Of a stretch of DNA of 64,000 bases, positions 4,105 to 38,886 are shown in pieces (the stretch's first letter is position 1; every line of letters starts with the position of its first letter). Origin of the DNA: Veillonellales bacterium (GTDB lineage: Bacteria; Bacillota; Negativicutes; Veillonellales; Dialisteraceae); assembly GCA_944390485.1 (NCBI GenBank), contig CALXPQ010000002.1, positions 62,001 to 126,000 on the forward strand, given 5' to 3'. The notes beneath the pieces are model-generated. The model was not told where the DNA came from. It did not search any database and saw nothing but the letters and a program-made list of their open reading frames with translations. A program made the position numbers and the translations under genes.

Positions 4105-4752
4105 TCAGAAATCAGCATCTGCAGACGCCGGGGACGGCGTTTCCGCGTCCCGGGGATTCGGCTTTTCGATGCCCCGGAGGAAGACCTCTACCGCATGGGA
4201 CACATAGGTGCGCTCGTCCGGGAGAACGCGCTTTTCGGCGGCGATGCGGTCCCGGACGGGCGTCGAAATATAATGGAAGTTCACGGTCCCGGCAAGGAGC
4301 AGCACCGCGGAAGGCACATCCAGATCGGGCCGGAACAGCCCTTCCTGCACGCCCCGGGTGAGAGCATGGTCCAGCAGGTCGTAGATCCGGGAGACCGCCG
4401 CTTCGAAGAGGCCGGTCTGTGCCGCCGACGGCGACAGCAGCGCGCGGAAGATGTATTTCAGGAGATGGGGATTTTTCTCGTGGGCGCGGATCGCCCGTTC
4501 CGCATACTCCCTGACCAGCGTCCGCGGGTCCATCGCATCGGCATCCATCGAGAGCAGAGAGGACAGCTCGCTGAGCTGCGCTGCGAGCGCGGCGTCGTAG
4601 AGCCCCTTCTTGCTCCCGAAATAATAGGAAATCATGGAAATATTCACGCCGGCGGCCGCGGTGATATCCCGGAGGGAAACACTGTCGTATCCTTTTTCCG
4701 CAAAAAGCGCGGTCGCCGTCTGAAGGATTCGGTCTCTGCTGTCCTGCTTCAT
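4105..4752 (-). CDS. TetR/AcrR family transcriptional regulator, orphan
   Basis: 215 residues. The start is taken at 4752 because AGGAGG lies 8 bases upstream; an in-frame ATG 13 codons earlier has no such site. The N-terminus is a typical TetR helix-turn-helix (I-L-Q-T-A-T-A-L-F-A-E-K-G-Y, then I-S-Y-Y-F-G-S-K-K-G-L-Y). The remaining part is an alpha-helical ligand and dimer domain. Such proteins normally repress efflux or metabolic genes and release DNA when a small molecule binds. No obvious target gene is adjacent: the activase lies downstream and 700 bp of non-coding DNA lies upstream. The promoter is followed directly by an inverted repeat closely resembling the one at the TetR gene at 33967, suggesting self-repression and possible cross-talk. 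Confidence 0.85.
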   Translation of the reverse strand: MKQDSRDRILQTATALFAEKGYDSVSLRDITAAAGVNISMISYYFGSKKGLYDAALAAQLSELSSLLSMDADAMDPRTLVREYAERAIRAHEKNPHLLKYIFRALLSPSAAQTGLFEAAVSRIYDLLDHALTRGVQEGLFRPDLDVPSAVLLLAGTVNFHYISTPVRDRIAAEKRVLPDERTYVSHAVEVFLRGIEKPNPRDAETPSPASADADF

Positions 4753-4785: not shown

Positions 4786-4805
4786 AATCAATCATTTGTT
4801 TGATT
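4786..4805. promoter_or_regulatory. Candidate TetR operator
   Basis: AATCAATCATTTGTTTGATT, with AATCA half-sites facing TGATT. It lies immediately downstream of the -10 box of the TetR gene at 4105-4752. Its core, AATCATTTGTTTGA, differs by one base from AATCATTTGATTGA upstream of the other TetR gene (33930-33943). Binding by the TetR protein is inference. Confidence 0.55.
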
Positions 4806-25059: not shown

Positions 25060-26298
25060 ATGCATAGAGAATGGCTTCAGAGCCGGCGATTCAAATATAT
25101 CCTTTGGTCCGTGATTCTGCTCGTGCTCATGGGCGGCGTGTACTGGTACACCCATTCGTCCACGAAGAGCGCGAAGACCGCGGCGGTTCGTCCTGCGGTG
25201 CAGGTGGAGACGCTCGCCCGGCAGGACATGATGAAGCGCGTGGTCCTTTCCGGTTCGACCGTGCCGAAGGCGGAAGTGGACATCTCCCCGAAGTACGTCG
25301 GGCGCATCGCCCGCGTGGCGGTGGATCTGGGCGACCGGGTGAAGGCCGGGGACGTGCTCATCCAGCAGGACGTGCGCGACCTCGATATTTCCATCCTGCA
25401 GAACGGCGCGAGCAGCGACCAGGCGGCGGCGGAAGCGGTGGAGAGCCGCTCCCAGTACGGCGCGGACACCATGAAGGCCCAGAGCGACTATGACAATGCG
25501 CTCGCCACGTACCAGCGCTACCAGTCCCTGTACGAGCAGGACGCGGTGGCCCTGCAGGAGCGGGACGACAAGTATCGCGCCATGATGGAGGCGAAGTCCG
25601 TGCTGGACAGCCTCCGGAACCAGCAGATGGGCGACCTGCCCGCCGTGGTGGCGGCGAAGGAAGCGGCGTCCCTTCAGGCGCAGTACACCGTGGACGCGCT
25701 CCGGCAGCAGCGCGACGACATGACCATCACCGCGCCGCGGGACGGCATCATCGGCTACCGGCAGGCGGAAGAAGGAGAGTGGGCCTCCGCGGGGCAGAAG
25801 CTCCTCACCGTGGTGGACAACAGTCTTCTCTACGTGGACTGCGACGTGTCCGAGCAGGATATCGGCATCCTGCGGCTGGGCATGACGCTCCCCGTGTCCA
25901 TCGACTCCCTCGGCGAGACCTGCGAAGGGCGCATCACCTACATCAGCCCCTCCATGGACGCGTCCACCCATTCCTACCGGGTGCGCCTCACGCTGGACAG
26001 CCGGGGCGGGCGCATCCTGGGCGGCATGTTCGCCCGGACGGAAGTGACCGCCGTGCAGCGGGAAGACACGCTCTTCGTGCCGAAAGAAGCGGTGGGCGAC
26101 GATAACGGGAAGAAGTACGTCTTCCTCATCGACGACGAGGGGAAGGCGCGGAAAGCCTATGTCACGCTGGGGCTCATCAACGACAATTCCATGGAGATCC
26201 TGGACGGCGTGCGCGAAGGAGACCGGGTGGCGGTGACGAATATTTCCCGGCTCCGTGACGGCCTCGAAGCGGAGATCACCGCCGGAGGCGGCGCATGA
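25060..26298 (+). CDS. RND efflux membrane fusion protein (HlyD/AcrA type)
   Basis: 412 residues. ATG 25060 is followed by a short basic stretch and one hydrophobic anchor (Y-I-L-W-S-V-I-L-L-V-L-M-G-G-V-Y-W). It then has the lipoyl half-motifs (V-D-I-S-P-K-Y-V-G-R and I-T-A-P-R-D-G-I-I-G), a coiled-coil hairpin at about 110-200 and a beta-barrel. It would link the inner-membrane pump to an outer-membrane channel in the periplasm. No strong ribosome site precedes the start, so the start is less certain than the product. It overlaps the pump gene by four bases (ATGA). No TolC-like channel gene accompanies it. Confidence 0.88.
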   Translation: MHREWLQSRRFKYILWSVILLVLMGGVYWYTHSSTKSAKTAAVRPAVQVETLARQDMMKRVVLSGSTVPKAEVDISPKYVGRIARVAVDLGDRVKAGDVLIQQDVRDLDISILQNGASSDQAAAEAVESRSQYGADTMKAQSDYDNALATYQRYQSLYEQDAVALQERDDKYRAMMEAKSVLDSLRNQQMGDLPAVVAAKEAASLQAQYTVDALRQQRDDMTITAPRDGIIGYRQAEEGEWASAGQKLLTVVDNSLLYVDCDVSEQDIGILRLGMTLPVSIDSLGETCEGRITYISPSMDASTHSYRVRLTLDSRGGRILGGMFARTEVTAVQREDTLFVPKEAVGDDNGKKYVFLIDDEGKARKAYVTLGLINDNSMEILDGVREGDRVAVTNISRLRDGLEAEITAGGGA

Positions 26299-29200
26299 AG
26301 CAGTTCAACCTGACGCACTACTCCGTGACGCATCCCATCGGGATCTTCATGATCGTGCTCTTCTTCGTCGTGCTCGGCCTGTACAGCTACTGGCGCATCG
26401 GCGTGGAGCTCTACCCGAATATCAATACGCCCTACGTAGTGGTGAGCGTCAACTATGACGGCGCCGACGCGGAGTCGGTGGAGCAGCAGATCACGAAGCC
26501 CGTGGAAGACGCGCTCTCCGCCGTGTCCGACGTGAAGCACATCACGTCCCGCTCCACCACGGGCCGCTCCCGGGTGACGCTGGAGCTGAATTTCGACGCC
26601 GACGCGGACGCCGCGGCCATCGACGCCCTCCAGAAAGTGAACGCCATCCGCCGGAGCCTCCCGGACGACGCGGACGACCCGGTGGTGCAGAAGCGCGACA
26701 TGGACGCCGCGCCGATCATCGATCTGGCCATCATGTCCAACCATCCGCTGGACGAGATGTACTCCATGGCGGACAATACGTTCACGAACGAATTCACCAA
26801 AGCTTCCGGCGTGTCCGACGTGGAGCTCTCCGGCGGCCGCGACAAGGAAATCGCCGTGAAGGTGGACCGGGACAAACTGTCCTACTACGGCATCACCATG
26901 CGGGATATCATCGACACCCTGCGGGCGGAGAACCGCCTCGCCCCGGCAGGCTCCTCCTACACCGACCGGCGGCAGACCCAGATCCGGCTGGACGCGCAGT
27001 ATGAGGACGTGGACGACATCAAGAAGATCCACCTTACCACGCCCTCCGGCGCGGAGATCCCCATCACCGCCGTGGGCGACGTGGTGCGGCAGGACGCGAA
27101 AGTCTCCCGCTACGCCCGCATTAACGGGCAGGACGCCATCGGCATCTCCATCTACAAGAACAGCGAAGCGAACCTCGTCTCCACCGCGGACAATGTCATG
27201 GAAATCCTCGAAACCATGAAGCAGGAGTACCCGGACTACCAGTTCGTCGTGGTGAGCGACTCCGCGGACTACGTGCGCACCGCCCTCCACAGCACCCTCG
27301 GCACCCTCATCGAAGGGCTTTTCACCACCGGCATGGTGCTTTTCCTCTTCCTGCGGGGCTGGCGCTCCACAGCGGCCGTCATCGTCGCCATCCCGACCTC
27401 TCTCATCTCCACCTTCTTCGCCATGTACATCTCGGGCTTCACCTTCAACATGATGTCCCTCATGGGCATGACCCTGTGCATCGGCATCCTCGTGGACGAC
27501 TCCATCGTCGTCATCGAAAATATCCACCGGCACCTCTCGCAGGGCGAAGACCCGCAGGAAGCCGCCGTCCAGGGGCGCATGGAGATCGGCATGGCCGCCA
27601 TCGCCATCACCCTCTGCGACGTGGTGGTCTTCCTGCCCATCGCCTTCATGGACAGCATGACCGGCCAGTTTTTCAAACAGTTCGGCCTCACCATCGTTTT
27701 CGCGTCGCTCTTCTCCCTCTTCATTTCCTTCACCCTGACGCCCATGCTCGCGTCCCGCTTCTTCCGGGGCGGCCTCCACATCCCCGACCGGAAACTGTGG
27801 CGCACCATCGACCGGTGGGAGCGGAAAGCGCAGGATGAATACACCCTCGCCCTGCGGTGGAGCTTCCGCCACCAGAAGAAACTCTTCGCCGGCGTCACCG
27901 TCGCGCTCGCCGTCATGGTGGGGCTCGTGCCCCTCGGCCTCATCGGCACCGAATACATGCCGAAGACCGACGAGAGCGGCTTCAACGTGCAGATGCAGCT
28001 TCCCACCGATGCCTCCATCGAGCGCACCGACGCCGTGGCGCGGCAGCTCGAAGCCTACCTCGCCCAGGTCCCCGAAGTGGAGACCTACATGGCCATGGCC
28101 GGCGGCGGGAACGGCGTCAACTCCGGCCGCATCCGCGTCTCCCTCGTGGACCGGCAGGACCGGGACCGCTCCATCTGGGACATCACCAATGAAATGCGCG
28201 CCTGGGTCGCACAGAACGTGAAAGACGGGGACGTGCGCATCCGCGAAGACCAGGCCTCCGTCTCCGGCACCTCCGGCGGCGGGCTCGGCCTCGGCGGCGG
28301 CGCTTTCCGCCTTGAGCTGCGCGGCAACAACATGGAAGAACTCATCGCTGCCTCCATCGAAGTGCAGGACATGCTGAAAAACGGGGACTACGGCCTCACC
28401 GACATCAACAGCACCTATCAGGAAGGGCTGCCCGAGCTCTCTCTCATCCCCGACCGGGAAAAGCTGAAACACTACGGCGTCTCCGTGGGCGAGCTCTACG
28501 ATACCTTCTCCTCCGCCATCAGCGGCGCCGACGCGGGCGTCCTTCCGAACGACCCGCTGAACGACGGCAACGACACCGACATCAACGTCTATTTCCGGGA
28601 CGGCGAATCCTATAAGAAATCCGACATCGCCGCCATCCCGCTCCGGAGCGACGAAGGCACCGTGCACGTGTCCGACGTGGCGGAGATCCGGGACGACCTC
28701 GGCCCCATCACCATCAACCGCACGGACAAGCAGCGCACCATCACCATCGGCGGCAATCCTTCCGACCGGCCCCTGAACAACATCATCCAGGACGTCACCC
28801 GCGACCTCCAGGCCATGGACCTGCCGCCGTCCGTCACCTTCCGCTTCTCCGGACAGGCGGACAGCATGACCGAGACCTTCGTGGAACTCCTGTCGGCGCT
28901 CCTCATGGGCATGCTCCTCGTGTACATGATCCTCTCCGTCCTCTATGAATCGGCGAAGACCTCCTTCATCCGCATGTTCTCCCTGCCCTTCGGGCTCATC
29001 GGGTCGCTCCTCTTCCTCTTCCTCATGAACCAGACCATCAACCTCTACTCCATGATCGGCATCATCGTCATGGACGGCGTCGTCGCGAAGAACGGCACTC
29101 TTCTCCTCGACTACACCCTCACCCTCATGCACCAGCACGGCATGAGCGCGAAAGACGCCGTCATGGAAGCGGGCCGCGAGCGTCTCCGCCCGATCCTCAT

Positions 29201-29429
29201 GACCACCTTCACCATGATCGTGGGCATGCTCCCCACGGCGCTCGCCGTCACCGCCGGCTCCGAGACGCGGAGCTCCATGTCCTGGGTCATCATCGGCGGC
29301 CTCCTCACCTCCACCGTCTTCACCCTCCTCGTCATCCCCATCATCTTCCTCTTCTTTGAAAACTATCCCATGCGCACCTGGCCCGCCCGCCTCTGGCGCC
29401 TCCTCCGCCCGGCCGCGCAGAAAGGATAA
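26295..29429 (+). CDS. RND family multidrug efflux transporter (AcrB/MexB-like), pump 1
   Basis: 1044 residues, the normal size, with the RND plan of twelve membrane segments and two large periplasmic loops. Proton-relay residues are present: the aspartate pair at 401-402 (I-L-V-D-D-S-I) and lysine 932 (V-V-A-K-N-G), matching AcrB D407, D408 and K940. A glycine-rich stretch lies near residue 660. Together with the fusion protein upstream it should export drugs, bile acids or similar amphiphiles using the proton gradient. The specificity cannot be read from sequence. No regulator is adjacent. A strong terminator follows. Confidence 0.92.
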   Translation: MKQFNLTHYSVTHPIGIFMIVLFFVVLGLYSYWRIGVELYPNINTPYVVVSVNYDGADAESVEQQITKPVEDALSAVSDVKHITSRSTTGRSRVTLELNFDADADAAAIDALQKVNAIRRSLPDDADDPVVQKRDMDAAPIIDLAIMSNHPLDEMYSMADNTFTNEFTKASGVSDVELSGGRDKEIAVKVDRDKLSYYGITMRDIIDTLRAENRLAPAGSSYTDRRQTQIRLDAQYEDVDDIKKIHLTTPSGAEIPITAVGDVVRQDAKVSRYARINGQDAIGISIYKNSEANLVSTADNVMEILETMKQEYPDYQFVVVSDSADYVRTALHSTLGTLIEGLFTTGMVLFLFLRGWRSTAAVIVAIPTSLISTFFAMYISGFTFNMMSLMGMTLCIGILVDDSIVVIENIHRHLSQGEDPQEAAVQGRMEIGMAAIAITLCDVVVFLPIAFMDSMTGQFFKQFGLTIVFASLFSLFISFTLTPMLASRFFRGGLHIPDRKLWRTIDRWERKAQDEYTLALRWSFRHQKKLFAGVTVALAVMVGLVPLGLIGTEYMPKTDESGFNVQMQLPTDASIERTDAVARQLEAYLAQVPEVETYMAMAGGGNGVNSGRIRVSLVDRQDRDRSIWDITNEMRAWVAQNVKDGDVRIREDQASVSGTSGGGLGLGGGAFRLELRGNNMEELIAASIEVQDMLKNGDYGLTDINSTYQEGLPELSLIPDREKLKHYGVSVGELYDTFSSAISGADAGVLPNDPLNDGNDTDINVYFRDGESYKKSDIAAIPLRSDEGTVHVSDVAEIRDDLGPITINRTDKQRTITIGGNPSDRPLNNIIQDVTRDLQAMDLPPSVTFRFSGQADSMTETFVELLSALLMGMLLVYMILSVLYESAKTSFIRMFSLPFGLIGSLLFLFLMNQTINLYSMIGIIVMDGVVAKNGTLLLDYTLTLMHQHGMSAKDAVMEAGRERLRPILMTTFTMIVGMLPTALAVTAGSETRSSMSWVIIGGLLTSTVFTLLVIPIIFLFFENYPMRTWPARLWRLLRPAAQKG

Positions 29430-31335: not shown

Positions 31336-33858
31336 GTGGGAGACGAGGTAAGGACGGGCGCGCCGTCGTACATCGAGGTGCGGGGCGCGCGGGTGCATAA
31401 TCTGAAGCATCTGGATATCGACATCCCGCTGGGGAAGCTGGTGGGCATCGCCGGGGTGTCCGGCTCGGGGAAGTCGTCGCTGGCGCTCGGCGTGCTCTAT
31501 GCGGAGGGATCGCGGCGGTATCTGGAGGCGCTGTCGGCGTATACGCGGCGGCGGCTGACGCAGGCGGCGGAGGCGAAGGTGGACAGCATCGACCATGTGC
31601 CGGCGGCGCTGGCGCTCCATCAGCGGCCGGCGGTGCCGGGCATCCGGAGCACTTTCGGCACGGCGACGGAGCTCCTGAACAGCCTGCGCCTCATGTATTC
31701 GCGCCTCGGGAGCCACCGCTGCCCGAACGGGCATTACCTCCCGCCCACGCCGGATGTGGCGGCCATGAAGCCTCTCGTGTGCCCGGTATGCGGCGCGTCT
31801 TTCGAGGGGCCGAGTGCGGAGAGTTTTTCGTTCAACAGCGAGGGAGCCTGCCGGACCTGCGGCGGCACGGGCGTGGTGCGCACGGTGGATGAGGCGTCGC
31901 TCGTGCCGGACGAGTCGCTCACCATCGACGAGGGGGCGGTCGCGCCGTGGAAATCGCTCATGTGGTCGCTCATGACGGACGTGTGCCGCGCCATGGGCGT
32001 GCGGACGGACGTGCCGTTTTCGGAGCTGACGCCGGCGGAGCGGGACATCGTCTTCCACGGGCCGGCGGTGAAGAAGCACATTTTCTACCACCCGAAGGGG
32101 AGCAACGACGCGGCGGAGCTGGATTTCACCTATTTCAGCGCGGTGCGCACGGTGGAGAACGCCCTCTCGAAGGTGAAGGACGAGAAGGGCATGAAGCGGG
32201 TGGAGCGGTTCCTGAAGCAGGGCGTGTGCCCGGACTGCGGCGGCACGCGGCTCTGCGAACGGGCGCGCTCCACGAAGCTCCGCGGGCTCACGCTCCCCGA
32301 GGCGTGCGCCATGACGCTGGACGATCTCGTGCCGTGGGTGGCGGCGGTGCCGGACGAAATGCCGCCGGTGCTGCGGGACATGGCGGAGAGCATCGCCGGA
32401 CAGTTCCTCCACACGGCGGCGCGGCTCCTCGAGCTGGGGCTGGGGTATCTCACGCTGGACCGGTCGGGGCCGACGCTCTCCACGGGGGAGCGGCAGCGGG
32501 TGCAGCTCGCCCGGGCGGTGCGGAACCGCACGACGGGCGTGCTCTACGTGCTGGACGAGCCGTCCATCGGGCTCCATCCGGCGAATGTGGACGGCCTGCT
32601 CGGCATGGTGCGGGACCTGACGGCGCAGGGCAATTCGGTGGTGCTGGTGGATCACGACGTGCGGGTGCTCCGCGCGGCGGACTGGCTCATCGAGATGGGG
32701 CCGGGCGCCGGCGCGGGCGGCGGCCGCCTGCTCTATGAAGGGCCGGTCGCGGGGGCGGAAGAGGCGCCCCAGTCTCTCGTGGGGCCCTTCCTCTCCGGGA
32801 AGGAGACCGTGCGCGTGCGGCAGCCGGCGGCGGAGGAGGAGCTCTTCGCCCGCGGGACGATCCGCATGAGCACGGGGCCGCTCCACACGGTGCACGCGCT
32901 GGATCTGGCCGTGCCGAAAGGGCGGCTCACGGCGGTGACGGGCGTGTCCGGCTCGGGCAAGACGACGCTCATCCTCGAGAGCCTCGTGCCGGCACTCGCG
33001 GCAGCCACGTCCGGCGGGGCGCTGCCTGCGCATGTGCGGTCCGTCGAGGCGGCGGGCATCCGGCGGGTGTGCCTCATCGACGCCGCGCCCATCGGGACGA
33101 ACGTGCGCTCCACGGTGGCCACGTACAGCGGCGTGCTGGACGATCTGCGCCGGGTGTACGCGGCGCTCCCCGCGGCGAAGGAGAAAGGCTGGAAGGCCGG
33201 GGATTTCTCGTACAATACGGGGCGGCTCCGGTGCCCGGTGTGCGACGGCACGGGGCAGATCACCATGGACGTGCAGTTTCTGCCGGACGTGTCTGTGCCG
33301 TGCCCGTCATGCGGCGGCTCGCGGTACGGGAAGGATGCGGAGGCGGTGCGCCGCGCGCCGAAGGGGGCGGACCCCGCCGGGGCGCTCGCCCTGCCGGACC
33401 TGCTCGCGCTCACGGTGGATCAGGCTCTCGAGCAGACGAAGGACGTGGCGAAGGTGCGGGAAAAGCTGGCGGCGCTCTCCCGGCTGGGGCTGGGGTACCT
33501 CACGCTCGCCGAGGCGACGCCGGCTCTCTCCGGCGGGGAAGCCCAGCGGCTCAAGCTCGCCGCGGAGATGGGGCGGCCGCAGGAGGATACGGTTTTCGTC
33601 TTCGACGAGCCCACCATCGGGCTCCATCCGCTGGACGTGCGGGTGCTCATCGGCATTTTCCAGTCGCTCATCGAGAGCGGGGCCACGGTCATCGTCATCG
33701 AGCACGACCTGGATATGATTGCGAACGCGGACTACGTGGTGGATATGGGCCCCGGCGGCGGGGAGAAAGGCGGGCGCATCGTCTGCGCGGGCACGCCCGC
33801 CGCTGTGGCCCGGTCGCCGGAGAGCGTTACCGGGCGCTATCTCCGGGAGCTGGTATAA
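31336..33858 (+). CDS. UvrA paralogue (short UvrA2/DrrC-like ABC ATPase)
   Basis: 840 residues from GTG 31336 behind AGGAGG. Two UvrA-type ATPase halves are present: Walker A G-S-G-K-S near 43-48 and G-S-G-K-T near 540, with signatures L-S-T-G-E-R-Q-R near 380 and L-S-G-G-E-A-Q-R near 730. Zinc-type C-P-V-C and C-x-x-C-G-G pairs occur near 149, 174, 298 and 635. It is about 100 residues shorter than housekeeping UvrA. Shorter paralogues of this kind are linked to tolerance of DNA-binding drugs or modest repair roles. Its position between OmpM and a TetR/RND cluster fits a resistance role, which is inference. It could still be a repair protein. Confidence 0.85.
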   Translation: MGDEVRTGAPSYIEVRGARVHNLKHLDIDIPLGKLVGIAGVSGSGKSSLALGVLYAEGSRRYLEALSAYTRRRLTQAAEAKVDSIDHVPAALALHQRPAVPGIRSTFGTATELLNSLRLMYSRLGSHRCPNGHYLPPTPDVAAMKPLVCPVCGASFEGPSAESFSFNSEGACRTCGGTGVVRTVDEASLVPDESLTIDEGAVAPWKSLMWSLMTDVCRAMGVRTDVPFSELTPAERDIVFHGPAVKKHIFYHPKGSNDAAELDFTYFSAVRTVENALSKVKDEKGMKRVERFLKQGVCPDCGGTRLCERARSTKLRGLTLPEACAMTLDDLVPWVAAVPDEMPPVLRDMAESIAGQFLHTAARLLELGLGYLTLDRSGPTLSTGERQRVQLARAVRNRTTGVLYVLDEPSIGLHPANVDGLLGMVRDLTAQGNSVVLVDHDVRVLRAADWLIEMGPGAGAGGGRLLYEGPVAGAEEAPQSLVGPFLSGKETVRVRQPAAEEELFARGTIRMSTGPLHTVHALDLAVPKGRLTAVTGVSGSGKTTLILESLVPALAAATSGGALPAHVRSVEAAGIRRVCLIDAAPIGTNVRSTVATYSGVLDDLRRVYAALPAAKEKGWKAGDFSYNTGRLRCPVCDGTGQITMDVQFLPDVSVPCPSCGGSRYGKDAEAVRRAPKGADPAGALALPDLLALTVDQALEQTKDVAKVREKLAALSRLGLGYLTLAEATPALSGGEAQRLKLAAEMGRPQEDTVFVFDEPTIGLHPLDVRVLIGIFQSLIESGATVIVIEHDLDMIANADYVVDMGPGGGEKGGRIVCAGTPAAVARSPESVTGRYLRELV

Positions 33859-33900: not shown

Positions 33901-33909
33901 TGCTACAAT
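33901..33909 (+). promoter_or_regulatory. Extended -10 promoter of the tetR-RND operon
   Basis: TGCTACAAT, an extended -10 box placed just behind the preceding terminator. Transcription would start near 33916, with the operator at 33930 immediately downstream. Confidence 0.5.
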
Positions 33910-33929
33910 GAAGATGAATCGAACGGTCT

Positions 33930-33947
33930 AATCATTTGATTGAATCA
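33930..33947. promoter_or_regulatory. Candidate TetR operator with three half-sites
   Basis: AATCATTTGATTGAATCA reads as three half-sites of one pentamer: AATCA, TGATT (its complement) and AATCA, giving two overlapping palindromes. It lies between the -10 box and the ribosome site of the regulator gene, where bound protein would block transcription. The first 14 bases match the site upstream of the TetR gene at 4105 with one difference. Confidence 0.6.
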
Positions 33948-33966
33948 TATAGAGAGGAGGCGCGCC

Positions 33967-34764
33967 GTGGAGAAGAAAGAGCAGATCCTCGCGGCGGCAG
34001 AAGCGCTGTTCCGCGAGCGGGGGTACCGGCGGACGTCCCTGCGGGCCATCGCCCGGGCGGCGGGCGCGAGTCCGTCGGCGGTGGCCTATTATTTCGGGAG
34101 CAAGGCGCAGCTCTACGGGACGATCTTCCCGGAGGAGGCCGGGCCGGACGACGTGAAGGAGCGCATCCGCCGGGCGGGGCTCCGGCTCTTCGCCGAGGAG
34201 GGCTACGAACGCGTGTCCATCCGCGACCTGGCGGAGGCGGCGCAGGTGAACAGCGCGGCTATTTCCTACCATTTCGGCGGGAAGGCGGCGCTGTACCGGG
34301 ACATCCTGTACCGGGGGACCGAGCGCATCACCGAGTTCGCCGAGACCGTGGCGCGGGAGCGCCCGTCGCCGGAGGGCATCCTCCACCTGTACGGGGTCTT
34401 CCTGTGCCGGTTCGGCGAGGAGCGGCCCGCGGTGCTGCGGCTCCTCTTCCGGGAATTCCTCGCCGGGACGGAAGTATTCCACGATTTCGTGCGGGAGCGC
34501 CTCGCTATCCTCATGGACATCATGCACCGCGCCGTGGCGGAGGGCGTCGCGTCGGGGCGGTTCCGGCCGGATCTCCGCGCGGAGGAGGCGTGCCTCGCCT
34601 GGGCGGGGATGGTGCTTTTCTTCTTCCAGTCGTCGGGCATCCACGGGGACGTGTCGCCCGGCCGGCCGCTCCGGGCGGAGGAATTTCTGGAGGAAGCGTG
34701 GCGGATCTTTGAGCGGGGCGTCCTGCGGGAGCCTGCGGAAAGGAGCGGGAAGGACAATGCATAG
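33967..34764 (+). CDS. TetR family regulator with two tandem DNA-binding domains
   Basis: 265 residues from GTG 33967, which follows GAGAGGAGG by 6 bases. The N-terminus holds two complete TetR helix-turn-helix domains at about 5-51 and 65-111. They are in exact register 60 residues apart: F-x-E-x-G-Y at 15-20 and 75-80, then Y-Y-F-G-S-K at 41-46 and Y-H-F-G-G-K at 101-106. By eye 22 of 47 aligned residues are identical. A single helical ligand and dimer domain follows. Ordinary TetR proteins have one DNA-binding domain per chain. The gene overlaps the downstream membrane fusion protein by 8 bases, so it should control RND pump 2 and itself. Confidence 0.88.
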   Translation: MEKKEQILAAAEALFRERGYRRTSLRAIARAAGASPSAVAYYFGSKAQLYGTIFPEEAGPDDVKERIRRAGLRLFAEEGYERVSIRDLAEAAQVNSAAISYHFGGKAALYRDILYRGTERITEFAETVARERPSPEGILHLYGVFLCRFGEERPAVLRLLFREFLAGTEVFHDFVRERLAILMDIMHRAVAEGVASGRFRPDLRAEEACLAWAGMVLFFFQSSGIHGDVSPGRPLRAEEFLEEAWRIFERGVLREPAERSGKDNA

Positions 34765-35821
34765 GATCATGACGGCGGCTGCGGCGGCGCTCATCGGGGT
34801 GAGCCTCACGGTGTGCGGCTGCGGCGCGAAACAGGCGGAGGCGGCGGAAGCGGCCCCCATCGTGAAGACCATGACCGTCGGGGCGGAAGCGGCCGCGGCG
34901 AAGCGCACCTTCTCCGGGACGGTGCACGGCGCGTTCGAGTCGCCCATTGCATTCCAGGTGGGCGGGCGCATCACCGCGCGGTATGTAGCGGCGGGGGACC
35001 GGGTGTCCGCCGGGCAGGCGCTCTTCCGGGTGGACTCCCGCGACGCGGAGGAGCAGGCCGCGGCGGCGCAGAGCGCGGTCATCTCCGCGGAGGCGCAGCT
35101 CGAGCTGGCCTCGTCCACCCTCGCGCGGTACCGGTCGCTCCACGAGGTGCACGCCATCTCGGACCTCGCCATGGACCAGACGGAGAACCAGTACAAGCTG
35201 GCGTCGGCCCAGCTGGCGCAGGCGCGGGCGGCGCTCGCCCGGGCAGAGAATAATCTGTCCTTCACCACGCTCACCGCGGACCGGGACGGAGTCATCGGCT
35301 CCACCATGTGCGAGGTGGGGCAGGTGGTGGCGGCGGGCACCCCGGTGGCGCTCATCGTGGACGACTCGAGCCTCGACGTGTACATTTCCTTCACGGAGAA
35401 ACAGTACGGCCAGTACCCGGTGGGCGCGCCGTGCACAGTGACCTTCTGGGCCCTGCCGGGCGTGACCGTGGCGGGGACGGTGCGCGAGAAGGCCGCCTCG
35501 CCGGACACGGCCACCGGCACGTACGATGTGAAAGTGGCGCTCACCGACCCGCCGGAGACCGTGGCCCTCGGCATGACGGCGGAAGCGGCGTTCGACGCGC
35601 CCCGGACGGACGCGGTGACGGTGCCGCTCTCGGCCATGGCGGGGGACGCGTCCTCGCCGGCGGTGTGGGTGGTCCGTGACGGCCGGGCGGCGCTCGTCCC
35701 CGTGACGGCCGGCGCGTACGGGAAGGACACGGTGGAGATCACCGGCGGGCTCTCCGCGGGGGACGTGGTGATCACCGCGGGGGCGCAGCGCCTCCATGAA
35801 GGAGAAGAGGTACGGACATGA
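34757..35821 (+). CDS. RND efflux membrane fusion lipoprotein
   Basis: 354 residues from ATG 34757. The signal sequence ends in a lipobox (S-L-T-V-C-G), so the mature protein is probably lipid-anchored and periplasmic. Lipoyl half-motifs (F-Q-V-G-G-R-I and T-L-T-A-D-R-D-G-V-I-G) flank a coiled coil at about 95-170. It belongs to the same family as the fusion protein of pump 1, but that one has an uncleaved anchor instead. It overlaps the regulator upstream by 8 bases and the pump downstream by 4. Confidence 0.9.
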   Translation: MHRIMTAAAAALIGVSLTVCGCGAKQAEAAEAAPIVKTMTVGAEAAAAKRTFSGTVHGAFESPIAFQVGGRITARYVAAGDRVSAGQALFRVDSRDAEEQAAAAQSAVISAEAQLELASSTLARYRSLHEVHAISDLAMDQTENQYKLASAQLAQARAALARAENNLSFTTLTADRDGVIGSTMCEVGQVVAAGTPVALIVDDSSLDVYISFTEKQYGQYPVGAPCTVTFWALPGVTVAGTVREKAASPDTATGTYDVKVALTDPPETVALGMTAEAAFDAPRTDAVTVPLSAMAGDASSPAVWVVRDGRAALVPVTAGAYGKDTVEITGGLSAGDVVITAGAQRLHEGEEVRT

Positions 35822-38800
35822 AAGGCCTGAATCTGGCGGAGTGGGCCATCCGCCACCGGCAGATCGTGTATTTCTTCATCATCTCTATCCTCATCGGCGG
35901 CATCTGGTCGTATTTCCATCTGGGGCGGAGCGAGGACCCGAGCTTCACCATCCGCCAGATGGTGGTGACCGCCGCCTGGCCGGGCGCGACCGCCGAGGAA
36001 ATCGCCGCGCAGGTGGCGGACCCGCTGGAGAAGAAGCTCCAGGACACGCGCGGGCTGGACTACGTCAAATCCTTCACTCACGACGGGAAGACCATCATCT
36101 ATGTGAATCTCAAGGACAGCGTGCCCGCCGAAGAGGTGCAGACCCGGTGGCACGAGGTGCGGAACATGGTGTCCGACGTGTGGGGGACGCTCCCCGCGGG
36201 CGTGGTGGGTCCGATCATCAACGACCGTTTCGACGACGTGTACGGCTCGATCTACGCCATCACGGGCGAGGGGTTCTCCTACGAGGAGAAAAGGAAATAC
36301 GCGGAAGCGCTGCGGCAGCGGATGCTCCGCATCGAGGACGTACAGAAGGTGGAGCTTCTGGGCGTGCAGGAGCAGACGCTCTATGTGGAAATGGACCAGA
36401 ACAAGCTGGCCTCTTTCGGCATGAGCCCGTCGGACGTGTTCCAGCTCATCAGGCAGCAGGGGCTCATGACGCCCTCCGGCGTGATCCGCACGGACGCGCG
36501 GAACGTGGCGGTGCGCGTGACGGGGCTCCTCCCCGCGGCGGACGCGCTCCGGGCCATCCCCATCCACGCGGGGGACCGGTCGTTCCGTCTGGGCGACGTG
36601 GCCGAGGTGTGGCAGGCCTACGCGGACCCGGAGACGGCGCTCATGGTTTTCAACGGCAAGCCCGCCGTGGGCGTGGCGGTGTCCATGGTGCCCGGCGGGG
36701 ACAATCTGAAGCTCGGGGAGGCGCTCTCCGCGGCGGCTGCGGAGATGCAGCAGGCCTTCCCGGCAGGGCTCTCGGTGGAGCTCGTGGCGGACCAGCCGAA
36801 GGTGGTGAACGACTCCATCCGTGAATTCACCGGGGCGCTCCTGGAGGCACTGGTCATCGTCATGGCGGTGAGCTTCTTCTCGCTGGGGCTACGGAGCGGG
36901 CTCGTGCTCGCGCTGTGCGTGCCCGTGGTGGTGTGCGCGGCGTTCCTCTTCATGGCGTGGAAAGGCATCGACCTCCACATCGTGTCGCTGGGCTCGCTCA
37001 TCGTATCGCTCGGCCTCCTCGTGGACGACGCCATCATCGTCATCGAGATGATGCAGGTGAAACTCGAGGAAGGGGCGGGCCGCATGGAAGCGGCGGAAGG
37101 CGCGTACAAAGCGTGCGCGCTGCCCATGCTGGCGGGGACGCTCATCACCGCGGCGGGATTCCTGCCGGTGGCGCTCGCCGAGGGGCAGACCGCGGAGTAC
37201 ACGAATTCCCTCTTCTGGGTCATCGCGGGGACGCTCGTGCTCTCGTGGCTCGCGTCCATCTTCGTCTCCCCCGTGCTGGGCTACCAGCTCATCCGCATCG
37301 GGAAGACGCCCGCCTGGAAGCACGCCCTCCACGAGAAGGCCTACGCCTTTTTCTACCGGGCCATCCGCGGGGCGGTGCACTACCGGAAATCCGTCGTCGC
37401 GGGGACGCTCGCCCTCTTTGCGGCGGCGCTCGGCACGTATCCTTTCATCCATCAGGAATTTTTCCCGCCGTCCGTGCGGCCGGAGCTCATCCTTGATGTG
37501 AATCTCGCGGGCGGCGCGTCCATCAAAGACACGAAGCGCGTCATGAGCGGCATCGAGGACCATCTCTACGGCGACCCGCGGGTGGCGTCCTTCGCCACGT
37601 ACATCGGCGACTCCGCGCCGCGGTTCATCCTCCTCTTCGACCCGCTCCCGCCGGAGGACGGCCACGGGCAGATGATCCTCACCGCGGACAGCACGGAGAG
37701 CCGGGACGCCCTGCGGGACGAGCTCACGGCGATGATCGCCGAGGAGTACCCCGAGGCGCGGGCCCACGTGCGATTCATCACCACCGGGCCGCCGGCGGAA
37801 TACCCGGTGATGCTCCGCCTCCGCGGGCCGGACGCGGAGAAGACCGCGGCTCTCGCGAAAGAAGCGCTCGCCCTCATGGAGCGGCATCCGCAGGTGGCGA
37901 ACGCGAGCCTGAACTGGCCGGAGACGACGCCCGCGGTGCGCCTCGCCATCGACCAGGACAAAGTGCGCGCCCTCGGCATCGACAACTACGCGGTGTCGCA
38001 GGACCTGTACGCGAAGCTCTCCGGCTATACGATCGCCGAATCCTACCAGGGCGACCAGCTTGTGCCGGTCACCTTCCGCCTCGAAGGCGCGCCGGAAGAG
38101 CAGCTCGCGGGCCTCGCGTCGCTCCCCATCCGGGCGGGCAGCGGGCGGTACGTGCCCCTCGGGGACATCGCGGACATTTCCTACGACAGCGAGATCCCCA
38201 CCATCTGGCGGCGGGACGCTTTCCCGTGCGTGACGCTCCGCGCGGACACGGCGAACGGCGGCAAGTCCGACTCCGTCACACGCGACCTGTACGAGCACAC
38301 CCTGAAAGAATTCCGGGAGCAGCTTCCCGCAGGGTACACGCTTGAAACGGACGGCACCCTCGAGAAGAGCGAAGACTCCCTCGCCCAGATCCTCGCGCCG
38401 GTGCCCGTGGTGGTCTTCGTGGTGCTGGCCATCCTCATCTTCGAGCTGAAACAGCTGCGGCCCATGGTCATCGCGGCGGTGTCCGGGCCGCTCGGCCTCA
38501 TCGGGTGCTTCCTTACGCTGGCCGCGACGGGCGAGCCTCTCGGCTTCGTGGCCATCATCGGCATGCTGGCCATCATGGGCATGGTCATCCGGAACAGCAT
38601 CATCCTCCTCGACCAGATCCGGCAGCATCTGGACGAAGGGCTCTCCCCGTACCGGGCGGTGATCGACTCGGCGGTGCTCCGCTTCCGGCCGATCATGCTC
38701 ACCTCCTTCGCGGAAGTGCTGGGGATGATCCCCCTTCTGCCGAATCCCTTCTGGTCGCCCATGTCGGCGGCGTTCATCGGCGGCCTCGCCGTGGCGACCC

Positions 38801-38886
38801 CGCTGGGGCTCCTCTTTGTGCCCGCGCTCTACGCGGCGTGGTACCATGTGGAGGAGACCGGTGAGAAAGGCGCGTGGGAAAAATAA
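35818..38886 (+). CDS. RND family efflux transporter, pump 2
   Basis: 1022 residues with the full RND plan. The aspartate pair is at 403-404 (L-L-V-D-D-A-I). At the AcrB lysine-940 position there is arginine 925 (M-V-I-R-N-S), a conservative change seen in some RND branches. It is clearly diverged from pump 1 and its operon layout differs (regulator, lipoprotein, pump), so the two look like separate acquisitions rather than a recent duplication. The substrate is unknown. It likely needs a shared outer-membrane channel encoded elsewhere. Confidence 0.92.
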   Translation: MKGLNLAEWAIRHRQIVYFFIISILIGGIWSYFHLGRSEDPSFTIRQMVVTAAWPGATAEEIAAQVADPLEKKLQDTRGLDYVKSFTHDGKTIIYVNLKDSVPAEEVQTRWHEVRNMVSDVWGTLPAGVVGPIINDRFDDVYGSIYAITGEGFSYEEKRKYAEALRQRMLRIEDVQKVELLGVQEQTLYVEMDQNKLASFGMSPSDVFQLIRQQGLMTPSGVIRTDARNVAVRVTGLLPAADALRAIPIHAGDRSFRLGDVAEVWQAYADPETALMVFNGKPAVGVAVSMVPGGDNLKLGEALSAAAAEMQQAFPAGLSVELVADQPKVVNDSIREFTGALLEALVIVMAVSFFSLGLRSGLVLALCVPVVVCAAFLFMAWKGIDLHIVSLGSLIVSLGLLVDDAIIVIEMMQVKLEEGAGRMEAAEGAYKACALPMLAGTLITAAGFLPVALAEGQTAEYTNSLFWVIAGTLVLSWLASIFVSPVLGYQLIRIGKTPAWKHALHEKAYAFFYRAIRGAVHYRKSVVAGTLALFAAALGTYPFIHQEFFPPSVRPELILDVNLAGGASIKDTKRVMSGIEDHLYGDPRVASFATYIGDSAPRFILLFDPLPPEDGHGQMILTADSTESRDALRDELTAMIAEEYPEARAHVRFITTGPPAEYPVMLRLRGPDAEKTAALAKEALALMERHPQVANASLNWPETTPAVRLAIDQDKVRALGIDNYAVSQDLYAKLSGYTIAESYQGDQLVPVTFRLEGAPEEQLAGLASLPIRAGSGRYVPLGDIADISYDSEIPTIWRRDAFPCVTLRADTANGGKSDSVTRDLYEHTLKEFREQLPAGYTLETDGTLEKSEDSLAQILAPVPVVVFVVLAILIFELKQLRPMVIAAVSGPLGLIGCFLTLAATGEPLGFVAIIGMLAIMGMVIRNSIILLDQIRQHLDEGLSPYRAVIDSAVLRFRPIMLTSFAEVLGMIPLLPNPFWSPMSAAFIGGLAVATPLGLLFVPALYAAWYHVEETGEKGAWEK

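Follow-up and report, generated by a model that had tools for sequence, protein, structure and literature searches.

Proteins of the TetR family typically carry one DNA-binding head per chain, and TetR repressors bind their operators either as a single dimer or as two. QacR and CprB are dimer-of-dimers repressors, in which the two dimers are distinct and each chain has a single head (PMC4150764). In Bacillus subtilis, RefZ (YttP) is found on DNA in twos and fours, where it is probably bound as a pair of dimers. A different build is that of Mce3R of Mycobacterium tuberculosis, a chain of 406 aa in which two whole TetR proteins are fused, each with its own C-terminal domain, and in which the two heads of one chain bind an asymmetric site (PMC11667970). 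No description of a TetR protein in which the head alone is doubled was found in literature searches across open-licence papers.

The gene studied here lies at positions 33967..34764 on the plus strand of the window (the whole stretch of 64,000 nucleotides that was analysed) and encodes a putative regulator of 265 aa with orthologs in nine genomes. Its GTG start codon at 33967 is preceded by AGGAGG at 33955-33960. Two TetR_N matches were detected in the protein, both over the Pfam cut-off (61 and 57 bits; cut-off 24), which place it within the TetR family, and both Pfam and AlphaFold2 show two heads in place of the single head of a typical member. The initial annotation of this DNA had described two full TetR helix-turn-helix domains in tandem, in 60-residue register and identical at 22 of 47 positions, followed by one ligand domain, and this description was borne out by Pfam, by direct count and by AlphaFold2. 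The heads at residues 5-51 and 65-111 are in exact 60-residue register and share 22 of 47 residues (23 of 49 when residues 4-52 are compared with 64-112). Head 1 (D1, residues 3-53) is encoded at 33973..34125 and head 2 (D2, residues 63-117) at 34153..34317, joined by a linker (residues 54-62; 34126..34152) of variable sequence, low identity and nearly fixed length, in which the pLDDT dips to 69. The ligand/dimerisation domain (residues 119-252; 34321..34722), all four parts being on the plus strand, was delimited by alignment with the structure 3dew and by a TetR_C_29 match of 24.6 bits, slightly below its cut-off of 26.2.

The AlphaFold2 model of the regulator, obtained for single chains with an alignment of ten sequences, had a pLDDT of 89 and a pTM of 0.71. 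The helices of D1 were predicted at about residues 2-18, 25-32, 36-43 (recognition) and 46-53, and those of D2 at 63-78, 85-92, 96-103 and 106-117. When residues 1-60 were predicted alone and without an alignment, the pLDDT was 93, and a Foldseek search matched D1 to TetR heads with TM scores of 0.77-0.87. The objection that one of the heads might have a defective recognition helix did not hold, as a proper helix is complete in both heads of the predicted structure. Residues 62-251 aligned with 3dew, the closest solved structure, with a Z of 17.1, an rmsd of 2.5 and 31% identity, while residues 58-258 aligned with many ordinary TetR structures at Z values of 14-17; D2 also aligned with the heads of RefZ and 3dew. 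The C-terminal domain has the all-helical fold of the ligand/dimerisation domains of the family, according to both the model (pLDDT 89) and the structure alignments. Because the residues from about 60 on align with ordinary TetR structures, a complete TetR protein is present there and D1 constitutes an addition to it. None of the PDB matches listed spanned both heads.

Within the same family, nine out of 12 genomes had an ortholog with both heads; they represent three of its four genera, with identities of 34-74%. When a double-head profile was searched against 380 genomes of the class, it scored at least 189 bits in the nine ortholog genomes and did not exceed 74 bits in the rest, covering one head only. 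About 1,490 other genomes produced just one other double-head case, L079, which was detected among 398 sampled genomes of the phylum; three further samples, each drawn around another organism and comprising 349, 346 and 395 genomes, contained no double match. The profile was built mainly on the regulator's own family, so that distant double heads could escape it, and its far reach is demonstrated by L079 alone. The L079 protein, encoded on the minus strand at 1087-1881 in a different genome of the phylum, has 264 aa and likewise the order head-head-ligand domain, but its heads are merely 29-36% identical to those of the window regulator. No relatives of it were found in three genomes of its class, and its double-head layout is likely to have had an independent origin. 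A viral collection contained one single-headed relative, and a plasmid search gave only partial matches. The arrangement is thus not common within the genomes searched (the 380 of the class plus the about 1,490 others), which upholds its rarity. The double-head design is real and is conserved in one bacterial family, confirming the original observation.

Both heads have been kept over the long term. Between genera, identity amounts to 48-56% for D1 and 58-60% for D2, with 22-28% for the ligand domain, and the dN/dS of D1 was low in close pairs of the genus g4 (0.056 and 0.084 where measurable). The head-to-head period is 60-62 residues in all nine orthologs. In D1, the residues R26, S37, Y41, Y42, G44 and K46, all of a DNA-contact type, are invariant in the nine orthologs, and the equivalents of Tyr43 of RefZ, whose replacement by Ala renders that protein deficient in DNA binding (PMC6657595), are invariant in both heads (Y41 in D1, Y101 in D2). 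The VNSA recognition motif is invariant in D2 and absent from D1, and the recognition helix is more variable in D1 than in D2. A tree built from 84 heads placed all nine D2s in one group (94/91), among or beside the single-headed relatives, and the D1s together outside the D2 group, with weak resolution. That D1s and D2s group apart implies that the two heads diverged before the genera split, whereas the 49 columns of this tree cannot tell an origin of D1 from D2 from an origin in another TetR gene. Chance resemblance or misassembly was ruled out by the nine independent genomes whose orthologs have a period of 60-62 residues, and a vestigial D1 was ruled out by its conservation. A recent internal duplication with continuing sequence exchange was unsupported, given the separate grouping of D1s and D2s.

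Alignment of the nine ortholog promoters revealed a 17-bp operator core, GAACRRTYnAATCRTTY, at 33921..33937 on the plus strand, with eight of its 17 positions invariant in the nine orthologs and most others nearly so. In seven of the nine genomes, the promoter of the regulator itself was the only place with an exact match to the first 16 bases of the core, and no exact 16-bp match was found in three genomes of the family without the double-headed protein. A wider regulon was discarded, as the one-mismatch sites inspected, most of which fell within genes, were attributed to chance. In the window, the core lies inside a four-box array of the form AATC-N4-GATT-N-AATC-N4-GATT (33917..33941, plus strand; AATCGAACGGTCTAATCATTTGATT) with two mismatches in 16, its boxes being AATC, GGTC (degenerate), AATC and GATT, with three good boxes and a weak one. 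The initial annotation had placed an operator with three half-sites at 33930-33947; its unusual character was maintained, but its extent and the plain three-half-site description have been superseded by the core and the four boxes, one of them degenerate. The array is present with one to three mismatches of 16 in the five orthologs of genera g1 and g2, for a mean of 6.6 in shuffled sequences, whereas the four orthologs of g4 have outer boxes that match no better than chance (six to seven mismatches) and still keep D1. The symmetry of the operator has two near-equal axes, at 33929 (0.62) and 33933 (0.65), and the half-sites can be assigned either way.

Just upstream of the operator, a -10-like hexamer (TACAAT; 33904..33909, plus strand) was read by eye, the g1 orthologs having TATAAT or TACAAT; an automatic scan for promoters gave no sigma-70 hit. 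The core follows just after this hexamer in g1 and g2, a position right behind a -10-like element that fits repression. In g4 it is found upstream of the likely -10, and from this placement in the promoter sequence its effect there may differ.

A single-headed relative of the regulator is encoded in the same window at 4105..4752 on the minus strand, with 30% identity to residues 60-256 and with both TetR_N and TetR_C_29 over their cut-offs. Before this gene, a pattern match located an operator-like palindrome (4786..4805, minus strand; plus-strand sequence AATCAATCATTTGTTTGATT) that resembles one AATC-N4-GATT unit, and cross-regulation between the double-headed regulator and this relative is possible. 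Across the class, AATC-N4-GATT units were found upstream of 26 out of 54 single-headed relatives, compared to 0.28 in shuffles, and seven of the 54 were preceded by an exact two-unit (four-box) array, compared to 0 in shuffles. The four-box array is therefore present both in two genera with the double-headed protein and before some single-headed relatives. Upstream of the single-headed RefZ-like regulators of L018, L019, L057, L059, L098, L125 and L146, two 12-bp AATC-N4-GATT palindromes follow each other with a fixed 13-bp period.

The stop codon of the regulator is overlapped by a gene for an HlyD-type membrane fusion protein (34757..35821, plus strand; Pfam HlyD_D23), with which an RND efflux pump of the AcrB family (35818..38886, plus strand; Pfam ACR_tran, 499 bits) is conserved. 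The order regulator-HlyD-RND pump is kept at six of the nine orthologous loci, comprising all those of g1 and g2 and one of g4; in the three remaining g4 genomes (L083, L084 and L086) the next gene encodes an amino-acid permease (two cases) or a solute-binding protein, in place of the pump. Directly upstream of the regulator, positions 31336-33858 encode a UvrA-like ABC protein of 840 aa with UvrA DNA-binding and ABC domains, which is 84-85% conserved within the genus. About 6 kb upstream, a second RND pump of the AcrB family is encoded at 26295-29429 (804 bits), merely around 22-23% identical to the orthologs of the pump downstream of the regulator.

We propose that the regulator acts as an autorepressor of its own operon, with the four heads of a single dimer on one compact operator and release by a ligand, a model to which we give an even chance. 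The protein would dimerise through its ordinary ligand domain, thereby bringing four heads per dimer, and these would contact one operator at the promoter simultaneously, in the places where single-headed relatives probably put two dimers. Repression would extend to the regulator itself, the HlyD adaptor and the RND pump, until a ligand lodged in the C-terminal domain released the protein and allowed the pump genes to be made. Since g1 and g2 offer four boxes to the four heads of such a dimer, the most economical interpretation is that the added head stands in for a second dimer. More tentatively, and with somewhat less than even confidence, we suggest that doubling the head could be a covalent shortcut that allows a dimer with a single pair of ligand pockets to occupy a four-box operator, in such a way that a single binding event would replace the cooperative assembly of two dimers.

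The intact ligand/dimerisation domain and the four boxes of some orthologs lead us to favour four heads per dimer over a single chain on a palindrome. The chief weakness of the four-head model is that g4 keeps D1 without the outer boxes; moreover, three of the four g4 loci lack the pump as next gene, the two symmetry axes are near-equal, and a linker of about 9-12 residues restricts the reach of D1. The loss of the outer boxes in g4 speaks instead for a reading in which the D2 pair alone recognises the palindrome of the 17-bp core, D1 contacting the flanking DNA to raise affinity or specificity, with no need for another complete set of half-sites. The core is indeed the sole part of the operator conserved in all nine orthologs, and D1 lacks the VNSA motif of D2, but a D1 with a full fold and its invariant set of DNA-contact-type residues, together with a four-box geometry kept in five of the nine operators, makes us regard this reading, the main rival, as somewhat unlikely. 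In g4, however, D1 may establish a less specific contact with the flanking DNA.

On the other hand, D1 and D2 of each chain could form an internal pseudo-dimer able to bind a palindrome alone, with dimerisation joining two sites by looping or bridging. Mce3R provides a precedent for this, as its asymmetric site is bound by two heads of one chain (PMC11667970), and g1 and g2 have two adjacent 12-bp units; however, the exact core appears once per genome, leaving no obvious second site to bridge, and the dimerisation domain is intact, so we judge such an arrangement improbable. Even less credit is due to a D1 that is folded but does not read DNA, with a structural, protein-binding or autoinhibitory role, since Y41, Y42, G44 and K46, which face the DNA, are invariant in all nine orthologs and D1 is almost as conserved as D2, although its recognition helix varies more. 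Finally, a recent duplication in decay, or a functionless artefact of assembly or gene fusion, found no supporting point and was refuted by nine orthologs in three genera, by the low dN/dS of D1 and by the divergence of the heads before the genera split, such that we give it practically no credence. If the four-headed dimer is correct, its coexistence with single-headed relatives that have a similar operator would offer a direct probe of cooperativity between dimers, as well as a ready-made framework for building repressors whose operators are longer and more specific.

Compared to the systems described so far, the regulator is closest in NCBIfam to RefZ, its best match with 103.6 bits, below the curated cut-off of 180 for the RefZ equivalog (NF037937), and its D2 plus ligand domain align with the RefZ structure 6mj1 at a Z of 15.7. 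Nevertheless, RefZ has one head and acts in the placement of the sporulation septum, whereas the double-headed regulator would control efflux. The closest structure, that of the Geobacter sulfurreducens TetR-family regulator 3DEW, also has one head and belongs to a protein with no established function. Mce3R shares with the regulator the presence of more than one TetR head per chain, but it does so through two complete TetR units, while here a single C-terminal domain is found within 265 aa and the head alone is doubled. QacR and CprB bring four heads to an operator by means of two dimers, for which one dimer is proposed in our case. The regulator is thus a TetR member that departs from the one-head plan, being neither a RefZ equivalog nor a fusion of the Mce3R type.
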